From: Acidobacteriota bacterium
Lineage (GTDB): Bacteria; Acidobacteriota; Holophagae; Holophagales; Holophagaceae
Reading direction: 5' to 3'
Assembly: GCA_016195985.1 (NCBI GenBank)
Contig: JACPYP010000032.1
Span: forward strand, 1 to 54,990
Length of the DNA: 54,990 nucleotides
The position numbers and the translations under genes were made by a program. The first letter of the stretch is position 1. Each line of letters begins with the position of its first letter. Below the pieces are notes generated by a model that did no database searches, was not told the origin of the DNA, and saw only the letters and a list, made by a program, of their open reading frames with translations. Positions 46,876-49,444 of the stretch are shown here, piece after piece.

Positions 46876-48339
46876 TCAGCGGCCTGGGCCAAGGCCCAGG
46901 GCGTGATGCATCCTTAACAAAATTTGATCCATTTCCCCAGGCTCGAAAGAGCCGAAGGCGAAGGGAAACCCGGGAACCGGTGCGTGGTCGATGAAATAGG
47001 TCTGTCCCAGCTGGAACTGGACACCGCGATCCAGGCAGGCCCGCTGCCAGGATTCAAGGTCCAGATCAGGGCGGGTGCGGATCCACAGGGAAAGCCCCCC
47101 CGGCGGAAGGGTGAAATCGAAGACGTCCTTGAAGAGGTCCCGGAGGCGGAACACCAGGTGGTCTCGGCGCTCGCGGTAGATCCGCTGCACCCGGTGGATG
47201 TGCCGGCGGATTTCGCCTTCTTGCAGCATGGAGGCGAAGGCCCGCTCGAGGGCCATGTCGCCCAGGGTATCGGTGTGGAGCCGGGCCTTGGCCAGCCGCG
47301 CCACGGCGTCCTTGGGGCCCGCGATGAGCCCAAGCCGCAGGCCAGGGGCCAGGAGGCGGGAGAAGGAGAAGAGATAGAGCACCGAACCGGAGGTGCCGAA
47401 GGTCGCCAGGGGGGCTTCAGTGGGGCCATCGAGGGTGTATTCGGCCTCGGGATCATCCTCCACGATGCCGAACCGGTGCCGCCTGGCCAGTTCCAGCAGG
47501 CGCTGGCGGCGGTTCGCGCTCAGCGTGACGGTGGTGGGCACCTGGAAGCGCGGCGTCAGGTAGAGGAGGCGGATGGGTCCTTCCGCCAGGGCCCGCTCCA
47601 GCGCATCCACATCCATTCCTTCGCTGTCCACGGGGATGGGAACCAGGCCGGCGCCCTGCTGCTGGAAGGCTTCCCGGGCGGAGGGGTTGCCCGGGTTCTC
47701 CACCGCCACCCGGTCGCCGGCCTTCAAGAGGCCCAAGGCGATCAAGCGCAGGGCTTGATGGGAACCATGGGTGACCAGGACGCCCAGCTCATCGGTCTGA
47801 ATGGCCCGTCTTTCCCGCAGGTAATCCACCAGCTGGTGCCGCAGGTCGAGTTCACCCAGGGGATCGCCGAAATTGAGGACATCGCTGGCGCGGCGGCGCA
47901 TGGCCCGGCTGTAGGCCCGGCCCAGAATCTCGGCGGACATCAGCCGCGCATCGGTCACGCCGTAGGAAAGTTTGAAAAGCCGCGTGGTGCTGTCCGTGCC
48001 CAGTTCCGGGCGCGTGGGCAGATCGAAGGCCTGGGGAGAGTGGATGGGCGGCGTCTGGCCGGGCTTGAGGCTCAGGGGCCTCGGCAAGGGATCGGAGACC
48101 CGGCTGCCGCTGCCGCTGTTCGCATCGATCCAGCCCTTGGCCTGAAGCTCCTCGAAGGCCGCCACCACGGTTCCGCGGCTGACCCGCAACTGGTCCGCCA
48201 GTTTCCGGGTGCCCGGGATGGGAGAGCCCGGGGGCAGGAGGCCGCTGCGTATCGCCAGAATCAGGGCATCCACGATCTGCAACACCAGGGGCTGCGGCGA
48301 GGTGTGGGAGATGTGGATGGGGAGATCCGGGATTCTCAT
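46876..48339 (-). CDS. MocR/PdxR-type regulator without the PLP Lys
   Basis: The protein (487 residues from ATG 48339) has a GntR-type winged helix (about 22-75; LADQLRVSRGTVVAAFEELQAKGW) and a class-I aminotransferase-like domain (YGVTDARLM, VTHGSHQALRL, VENPGNPSAREAF, EDDPEAEYT). The Lys that forms the aldimine with PLP should be in SFSK; here it is SFSR (R328, codon 47356-47358), with LLAPGLRLG following. It may bind PLP weakly or not at all. Operonic with the transmembrane kinase. A TTG at 48369 could add ten residues, but ATG 48339 is preferred by family alignment. Confidence 0.87.
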   Translation of the reverse strand: MRIPDLPIHISHTSPQPLVLQIVDALILAIRSGLLPPGSPIPGTRKLADQLRVSRGTVVAAFEELQAKGWIDANSGSGSRVSDPLPRPLSLKPGQTPPIHSPQAFDLPTRPELGTDSTTRLFKLSYGVTDARLMSAEILGRAYSRAMRRRASDVLNFGDPLGELDLRHQLVDYLRERRAIQTDELGVLVTHGSHQALRLIALGLLKAGDRVAVENPGNPSAREAFQQQGAGLVPIPVDSEGMDVDALERALAEGPIRLLYLTPRFQVPTTVTLSANRRQRLLELARRHRFGIVEDDPEAEYTLDGPTEAPLATFGTSGSVLYLFSFSRLLAPGLRLGLIAGPKDAVARLAKARLHTDTLGDMALERAFASMLQEGEIRRHIHRVQRIYRERRDHLVFRLRDLFKDVFDFTLPPGGLSLWIRTRPDLDLESWQRACLDRGVQFQLGQTYFIDHAPVPGFPFAFGSFEPGEMDQILLRMHHALGLGPGR

Positions 48340-48525
48340 CGGGGACGGGTCCGCAGGGTGGTGAACCAAGGGCCGGGCAGGGGTTCCCGATCATCGTCAT
48401 GGGTGGCCCGCCGGCTTTTGAAGGCTGGATCGATCACGCAATCATTTGGAAGGAACCGGAAGATGAATGACAAAAGACAAAAATGTGAATGGTTTTGGTT
48501 AGACGTTAATCCGTTCCTGCCCGAA

Positions 48526-48556
48526 TGGACCAGCGATTTTTTTTTAAAGCGGACCA
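48526..48556 (+). repeat. 31-bp element, copy A
   Basis: TGGACCA, a 16-nt spacer rich in T, then GCGGACCA. The GGACCA half-sites repeat directly, 25 bp apart. Copies B (48591), C (49414) and D (51702) have the same total length and the same spacer length. Copy B begins 65 bp after copy A. Confidence 0.8.
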
Positions 48557-48590
48557 TGAGATTTCCATGGCGCGGTGAGAGCTCCGGGAG

Positions 48591-48621
48591 TGGACCATCG
48601 CGTTTTCTTTCGAGCGGACCA
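48591..48621 (+). repeat. 31-bp element, copy B
   Basis: TGGACCA, 16-nt spacer TCGCGTTTTCTTTCGA, GCGGACCA. Perfect half-sites. It stands 65 bp after copy A and just before the decayed signal-peptide-like sequence at about 48628. Confidence 0.8.
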
Positions 48622-48849
48622 CTGCCCTCACACGGGTGCTGGCCGCGGGGGCCCTGGGCCTGTGCACCGACCTTCCGCTCGGTGCGCAGGCGCTCGCATC
48701 AAACACCGCAGGGCACGAAAACGGCTGCCCTGGCGCCGAGGCTGCTGAACGAGATCCAGAAACACAAGCGAGACCACCAGGCCGCCCAAGCCGAATTGGA
48801 CCACCTCAAATGGCAGACGGAGCAGATGCTGGCTAGGCCCGATCGTTAG
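48605..48849 (+). pseudogene. Decayed gene: signal-peptide-like start and coiled-coil end in different frames
   Basis: Frame 0 around 48622-48692 reads TALTRVLAAGALGLCTDLPLGAQA, a good signal peptide. The continuation is out of frame: frame +1 around 48721-48849 reads AALAPRLLNEIQKHKRDHQA with a coiled-coil-like end to a TAG at 48847-48849. No start codon with a ribosome-binding site was found. Together they look like a collapsed secreted protein with a coiled-coil C-terminus, such as a tail-fibre or chaperone-linked type. The assignment is tentative. Confidence 0.35.
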
Positions 48850-48916
48850 CGGCATGGAAGGCCAGTCAGGCGAACCCACCACCTTCCGCAGGATTTTGGG
48901 TCCAGCCTTGGGGAAT

Positions 48917-48946
48917 TGCCACTGGGCTGCTCCAAAGTGCCACTGG
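48917..48946. repeat. Pair of 9-bp direct repeats TGCCACTGG
   Basis: TGCCACTGG at 48917-48925 and again at 48938-48946, 21 bp apart. The layout (short direct half-sites around 20 bp apart) recalls the 31-bp elements but the sequence differs. Similar multiple short repeats occur at the ends of IS21-family elements; here no transposase remains. Confidence 0.4.
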
Positions 48947-49058
48947 CCCCCCTTTTGATGCTGTGAGCTGAGGTCCGGAGCCGCAAGGGGGGATGATTCA
49001 GAAACACCCCCCCACGAGGATCCATGTGGTGATCCCCGTTCTCACTTTGGAGGCTTCC

Positions 49059-49217
49059 ATGGAGAAGCAGCAACGTTTGTCATTGACCCTCAAGAAGGAA
49101 ACCCTGGTCAAGATCTCGACCGGGGATCAGTCCCATGTGGCGGGCGGAGCCTACTCCTACCCGCGGCAGGCATGTCGGACTTACACCCACAATCGGCTCT
49201 GCCCCCACCACAAATAA
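49059..49217 (+). CDS. Orphan lanthipeptide-like RiPP precursor
   Basis: The 52-residue peptide has a leader of LSLTLKKETLVKIS type, as in class I lanthipeptide precursors, ending in a double-Gly-like VAGG. The core that follows, AYSYPRQACRTYTHNRLCPHHK, has two Cys plus Ser and Thr, enough for one or two thioether rings. GGAGG at 49049-49053, five bases before ATG 49059, is an excellent ribosome-binding site. No lanB/lanC, protease or transporter gene is in the window, so the enzymes must act in trans if the peptide is made. It lies in a remodelled region; a chance short reading frame is unlikely given leader, GG site and ribosome-binding site together. Confidence 0.7.
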   Translation: MEKQQRLSLTLKKETLVKISTGDQSHVAGGAYSYPRQACRTYTHNRLCPHHK

Positions 49218-49304
49218 CGATCCAGGTCCTTGCCCGCGGCGGCAGGTCGATTCACCGCGGAAGAGCGCCATGGAGAAAGCGCCGTCAGCCTTCCGGGCAC
49301 CCTC

Positions 49305-49338
49305 TGTTTGAGAAAAAAGGGTGTTTGAGAAAAAAGGT
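49305..49338. repeat. 17-bp tandem duplication
   Basis: TGTTTGAGAAAAAAGGG is followed directly by TGTTTGAGAAAAAAGGT. The only such perfect short tandem in the lanthipeptide-to-lipoprotein spacer (49218-49509), which otherwise holds the hairpin and copy C below. Confidence 0.75.
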
Positions 49339-49347
49339 TGAGCCACT

Positions 49348-49375
49348 GCGCCTGATGCCGAGATGCATCAGGCGC
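49348..49375. terminator. Hairpin 130 bp after the lanthipeptide gene
   Basis: An 11-bp stem (49348-49358 with 49365-49375; GCGCCTGATGC arm) with a 6-nt loop. No strong T tract on the plus strand follows, so it may be a weak terminator or only a structural dyad. Confidence 0.4.
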
Positions 49376-49413
49376 GGCCGTTTGTACGGATCGAATGGGC
49401 GGCTGATCCCGGG

Positions 49414-49444
49414 TGGATCACTCGCATTTCTCAAGAGCGGACCA
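49414..49444 (+). repeat. 31-bp element, copy C, upstream of the 49510 gene
   Basis: TGGATCA, 16-nt spacer, GCGGACCA. One half-site differs by a single base. It ends exactly 65 nt before the ATG at 49510. Copy D ends exactly 65 nt before ATG 51798 of the paralogous chitinase gene. Confidence 0.75.

Follow-up and report, generated by a model that had tools for sequence, protein, structure and literature searches.

Can a lanthipeptide precursor gene be of use when no enzyme that could modify its product is encoded around it? The question is raised by a gene for a 52-residue peptide on contig JACPYP010000032.1 of an Acidobacteriota bacterium of the family Holophagaceae; the window analyzed here is this entire contig (C9, 54,990 b), which belongs to a 4.26-Mb genome designated G000. 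An initial annotation regarded the gene as an orphan precursor, either dependent on a distant LanB/LanC pair or left over from a lost cluster. Comparison with related genomes, in particular with G033, a sister species of the same genus, suggests that it is most likely a local orphan and not a genomic one: it probably encodes a class I lanthipeptide precursor acting in trans, as a member of a dispersed set that a single machine composed of LanB, LanC and a C39-peptidase exporter would serve. The gene and its translation signals are composed as follows.

49059..49217, + strand: class I lanthipeptide-type precursor gene, 52 aa (open reading frame (ORF) reading, NF038153 match, leave-one-out profile)
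49059..49148, + strand: leader MEKQQRLSLTLKKETLVKISTGDQSHVAGG, residues 1-30 (L9-x-L11-x-K13 ... VAGG; NF038153 match to residues 1-30, precursor alignment)
49149..49214, + strand: predicted core AYSYPRQACRTYTHNRLCPHHK, residues 31-52 (after GG, with putative cleavage there; likeness to the cores of C18 and G033:2175k)
49049..49053, + strand: ribosome-binding site GGAGG inside GGAGGCTTCCATG (the same in all five G000 and G033 precursor genes under comparison)

The ribosome-binding site, KKETL leader, VAGG site and Cys/Ser/Thr core named in the initial annotation are all present as described. GGAGG precedes the ATG by 5 nt, the leader has L9, L11 and K13 with a double glycine at 29-30, in a genome that also encodes a C39 exporter, and the 22-residue core contains S33, T41 and T43 together with C39 and C48. 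NF038153, the NCBIfam class I lanthipeptide leader, matches the precursor over the whole profile length (E 3.1e-4, 20.8 bits, slightly short of its curated cut-off of 22). In a leave-one-out search of the 829 stop-to-stop frames that the window contains, a profile of the four other precursors described below ranked this ORF highest, with E 7.8e-9, the next frame having 0.26, which argues against a chance match and confirms, at the level of sequence, a real class I lanthipeptide-type precursor gene.

The statement that no modification enzyme is encoded in the 55 kb holds for LanB and LanC, with no match to PF04738 or PF05147 on contig C9, while other enzymes for ribosomally synthesized and post-translationally modified peptides (RiPPs), such as YcaO and radical SAM enzymes, were outside the search. 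The G000 genome encodes the LanC domain once and the LanB domain twice, all off contig C9, and the suggested distant LanB/LanC pair does exist, in a seemingly intact operon on the 632-kb contig C18 (about 132.3-142.2 kb) that comprises lanC, lanB and the genes for an HlyD-type protein, a C39-peptidase ABC exporter and a second ABC protein. The LanC-linked LanB matches PF04738 (2-648 of 649) and PF14028 (1-255 of 255), its C-terminal domain passes TIGR03891, and LANC_like, Peptidase_C39 (E 2.8e-36), ABC and HlyD domains are found in the genes neighboring lanB; among the best 25 matches per ABC protein, the NCBIfam names for exporter parts were all under their cut-offs. LanC retains the WCYG and CHG motifs, known for a zinc role, and the only LanC-domain match of G000 belongs to a stand-alone LanC, not a LanM-type synthetase. 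G033 has the same five operon genes in the same order (LanC, 81%). Adjacency of precursor and enzymes, a usual but not defining trait of class I systems, is absent for the window gene, which lies at least ~138 kb from the LanBC operon (132 kb to the nearer C18 end plus ~6 kb in C9); in G033, the operon maps to 2.04 Mb and the window-equivalent site to 3.41 Mb.

The initial annotation would have been refuted by a genome lacking lanthipeptide enzymes and a leader unconserved among relatives. The genome search it proposed did not refute it and returned, besides LanB and LanC, two further precursors that resemble the window gene in leader and upstream repeats and have an identical ribosome-binding site. 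NF038153 finds three precursors in G000 (C9, C18:286k and C30:103k) and three in G033 (2033k, 2175k and 4162k), the C30 and C18 genes scoring 33.6 and 25.2 bits, both over the curated cut-off of 22. The leader is common to five of the six, with invariant residues that include L9, L11, K13, E14, T15, V27, A28 and G30, and the same five share the GGAGGCTTCCATG start region exactly; G033:4162k, whose start region is different, was left out of the five-gene counts given below. This sixth gene (G033:C1:4161881-4162054, L011) is a dissimilar class I-type precursor, likewise distant from LanBC. The C9 and C30 precursors are separated by at least ~109 kb, reckoned as above, and the C18 precursor lies 144 kb from LanBC and shares synteny with G033:2175k, with flanks of 85-92% DNA identity. 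These two genes are 72% identical in DNA, with dN 0.19 and dS 1.95 over 55 codons (dS being near saturation), and their protein is kept despite the DNA divergence. The window core is like both of theirs (Q-x-C ... T-x-NR ... C). Searching G000 and G033 with a profile of all five precursors (E <= 10) yielded nothing further except a match of E 3.75 on another G000 contig, so no precursor was found adjoining LanBC in G000. The GGAGGCTTCCATG 13-mer alone was rejected as a precursor marker, being present in 42 of the 47 genomes of the genus; none of five further copies inspected in G000 and G033 stands ahead of a precursor.

If these parts act together, the LanC-linked LanB of C18 would dehydrate Ser/Thr residues of the core (S33, T41 and/or T43) and LanC would form thioether rings onto C39 and C48, a ring pattern predicted from the core. 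Cleavage after VAGG and export of the product, any activity of which is likewise presumptive, would fall to the C39-peptidase ABC exporter and its HlyD partner. The same LanBC/C39 machine would also serve the two sister precursors encoded at other sites of the genome, and each precursor gene would be its own transcription unit, activated by the operon-side LytTR regulator via two repeats 21 bp apart.

The distribution of leader and enzyme supports their association. Among the 47 genus genomes, many of which are drafts, LanC occurs in two (E <= 0.001) and the NF038153 leader in the same two (E <= 0.1), G000 and G033, while LanB domains occur in 27. In the family (77 genomes), seven have LanC (that of G066 within a LanM-size frame) and five the leader, with three in common. 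In a phylum sample of 197 genomes, the leader was matched in four (E <= 0.01) and LanC in 24, and the three leader matches over the cut-off all coexist with LanC. Dispersal may extend beyond G000 and G033, for G120, which belongs to a different family of the phylum, carries two leader matches, one lying 0.5 kb from LanC and the second on another contig. Among LanC loci from named genomes (best 80 of 466), a leader-profile match (E <= 1e-3) was found at 39 of 80, one of them (L148) having fed into the profile; this leader type is therefore often near LanC, but LanC does not imply the leader.

The upstream and downstream elements suggest how scattered genes might be expressed together.

48915..48927, + strand: upstream direct repeat 1, ATTGCCACTGGGC (leave-one-out motif test)
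48936..48948, + strand: upstream direct repeat 2, AGTGCCACTGGCC, 21 bp from repeat 1 (leave-one-out motif test, repeat search)
48992..48998, + strand: place of the sisters' TAGGATC box, here the degenerate GATGATT (by alignment; putative function)
49014..49039, + strand: inverted repeat or hairpin (GGATC...GATCC) in the 5' untranslated region (UTR) (hairpin predicted at a like place in all five genes)
49340..49383, + strand: stem-loop 122 nt past the stop, a possible terminator without a good T run (not in the consensus terminator scan)

Two 13-bp direct repeats with a period of exactly 21 bp lie upstream of all five precursor genes. The sites were first taken from an alignment by eye, and since the five genes are related and include one orthologous pair (C18 and G033:2175k), common descent accounts for part of the upstream likeness. 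In leave-one-out scoring of all positions of each locus, the true repeat pair ranked first in four of the five and third in the remaining one, in which two overlapping pairs ~490 bp further upstream outscore it; the shuffles attaining the true-pair score were 0, 2, 0, 0 and 4 of 2000. Repeat 2 stands 56, 67, 56, 56 and 67 bp from the TAGGAT-like box, two values that differ by one helical turn. A stem-loop 15-122 nt past the stop follows every one of the five genes, and each therefore looks like a separate transcription unit. The UTR hairpin is stronger than shuffles with z below -2.5 in three genes, the other two having -0.73 and -0.79.

If LytTR repeats are taken as 9 bp long, a 12-bp gap gives a period of 21 bp. 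The period seen in all five genes corresponds to 12 bp between such repeats and fits the spacing of LytTR sites, whose direct repeats are mostly separated by 12 bp (PMC6193735). A histidine kinase and a LytTR response regulator adjoin the LanBC operon in G000, as do a kinase and two regulators in G033. On L121, a contig of a metagenome-assembled genome that did not contribute to the repeat-motif matrix, a histidine kinase, a LytTR regulator, a precursor, LanC and LanB are grouped together, and the best of 11,706 positions is a repeat pair 105 bp before the precursor ATG, attained by 9 of 2000 shuffles. The G000 regulator is 71% identical to its G033 orthologue and at most 54% identical to any other protein among the matches listed. 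The LytTR regulator beside the operon is likely the common activator of the precursor genes, with the repeats as its predicted binding sites.

Comparison with G033 shows single units present in one genome and absent from the other, with the following features at the window site.

48834..49412, + strand: G000 segment of ~579 bp, missing at the corresponding site of G033, containing the whole unit (site comparison; edges approximate)
48618..48834, + strand: remnant of a neighboring gene intact in G033 (473 aa), in two fragments in different frames (site comparison)
48523-48621 and 49411-49444: GGACCA repeats (repeat search)

At this site, G033 has the end of the 473-aa gene, ~96 bp and the next gene, without a precursor, whereas the extra ~579 bp of G000 span the unit from the repeats through the stem-loop; a gapped alignment is uninformative across the gene remnant. 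The region had rightly been called remodeled, given the extra DNA and the two fragments upstream. The remark that the gene sits beside repeats is correct as to position, but the GGACCA repeats are not special to the precursor: they are present at like places in G033, precursor-free there, and the idea that they carry the precursor was dropped. They are possibly operators of a MocR-type gene. The C30 site comprises ~1.8 kb in G000, with a precursor and a 392-aa protein, against 21 bp in G033, and at the operon flank it is G033 that has a precursor, where the regulator and the ABC gene of G000 are just ~20 bp apart. As two genomes are compared, insertion in one and deletion in the other are indistinguishable. 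A wider reading, which we offer tentatively and would put slightly below even chances, is that of a class I dispersed regulon, in which a single LanBC/C39 machine and a single LytTR two-component system would serve single-gene units of promoter, precursor and terminator, gained or lost at separate sites between sister species. If that is true, the peptide repertoire would change while the enzymes stay untouched.

Several observations weigh against a trans-acting precursor in a common regulon. Two family genomes, the drafts G055 and G060 (91% and 81% complete), have a leader match and no LanC match, as does G134 in the phylum sample with a weak leader match, while four of the seven LanC genomes of the family and 21 of the 24 in the phylum sample have no leader match; kinship of G000 and G033 may be the source of their co-occurrence. 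No orthologue of the window precursor was found when one was looked for, so selection on this copy is not measurable. The sixth G033 precursor has no common upstream elements, and the L121 repeat pair scores just 10.7. Before LanC, no repeat pair was found in either G000 or G033 (best scores, -2.2 and -3.8, against 23-37 for the five sites), and the LanBC operon itself is therefore not seen in the regulon; as every genus genome also has other LytTR-type matches to the G000 regulator, the tie of the repeats to the operon-side regulator is one that we infer. Of the five promoter-like boxes, the one of the window copy is the most degenerate; in this copy, a sigma-70 scan gave no match, no -35 was recognized, the UTR hairpin is no stronger than shuffles (z -0.79), and the NF038153 score lies below the curated cut-off.

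The best surviving alternative, though an unlikely one, is that the window gene is a decaying stray copy, a unit no longer expressed or modified and drifting. The degenerate -10-like box, the core with one Cys fewer than that of C18, the subthreshold leader score, the adjoining broken gene and the absence of the unit from G033 would all suit such a fate. The frame, start codon, GG, two core Cys and repeat pair are, however, intact, and the leave-one-out scores of leader and repeats are still strong. The related suggestion of a leftover of a lost cluster is weakened by the apparently intact distant operon and the two sisters, even if the degenerate box still fits it. Modification by the second LanB of G000 (C18:584776-586728, L082), which has no LanC and has a LytTR regulator nearby, or by another RiPP enzyme, a group at which no search was aimed, seems highly improbable; this LanB matches both LanB profiles at nearly full length, but LanB domains occur in 27 of the 47 genus genomes whereas the leader family occurs in just two, both with LanC. 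That the ORF arose by chance or encodes a non-RiPP small protein is scarcely credible, for although it is short, has no Pfam match and, as a single-peptide query of the genome contigs, found no relative, it stands far ahead of all other frames in the leave-one-out search and shares its ribosome-binding site and upstream repeats with its sisters.

A class I precursor serviced in trans by the LanBC/C39 machine would resemble known systems in part. Class I precursors of Bacteroidetes have an LxLxKx5L leader and a GG site (PMC7268733), and G000 is like them in the L-x-L-x-K leader, the double glycine, the C39-type peptidase and LanB plus LanC; from the type set out in that survey, it departs in that Ile19 replaces the final Leu of the motif in the window leader and that no precursor was found adjoining LanBC. 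The survey spanned seven genes on each side of a LanC-domain gene, so distant precursors would be missed. Genes for prochlorosin and synechococsin precursors may lie dispersed across a genome and depend on one enzyme (PMC10783134, PMC7268733), an arrangement similar to that in G000; they involve, however, the class II LanM and up to ~80 precursors of the Nif11 family, whereas G000 has three, with class I enzymes and common upstream repeats. HdrR and BrsR of Streptococcus mutans act at direct-repeat pairs upstream of several bacteriocin promoters (PMC6193735). The repeat pairs of G000 have similar spacing to those of HdrR and BrsR, but constitute candidate binding sites; LytTR repeats are expected ~10 bp upstream of a -35, and none was recognized in the window copy. 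The G000 regulator is a kinase-linked response regulator, unlike the HdrRM/BrsRM type. A search of the open-licence literature for dispersed class I precursors, including Acidobacteria, Geothrix and LytTR regulators with lanthipeptides, found no such report among the results listed. Since surveys can depend on the adjacency of precursor and enzyme, a class I system with all its precursors elsewhere would escape them, and common upstream repeats would provide a second, regulatory handle for locating such precursors; the comparison of G000 and G033 shows gain or loss of single precursor units directly.

A few neighboring features may be added. A ~103-aa ORF, read by eye, lies upstream of the 2175k precursor in G033 (L040:5800-6252, - strand) and is preceded by another 21-bp repeat pair and TAGGATC-like boxes; it is possibly co-regulated, and a seemingly degraded relative occupies its place in G000. 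The 392-aa protein directly upstream of the C30 precursor (L036:8721-9899, + strand) has a class II tRNA-synthetase core domain, and a sequence of ~30-60 bp at L036:9639-9700 recurs at several places in G000 and G033. G033 has one MocR-type regulator gene (named by eye; E <= 1e-100), at 3.42 Mb and not near its precursors. At the same threshold, G000 has three (window 46876-48369, C18:276669-278096 and C30:77967-79406), all within ~25 kb of a precursor (~8 kb on C18 and ~24 kb on C30), a proximity that is probably incidental.
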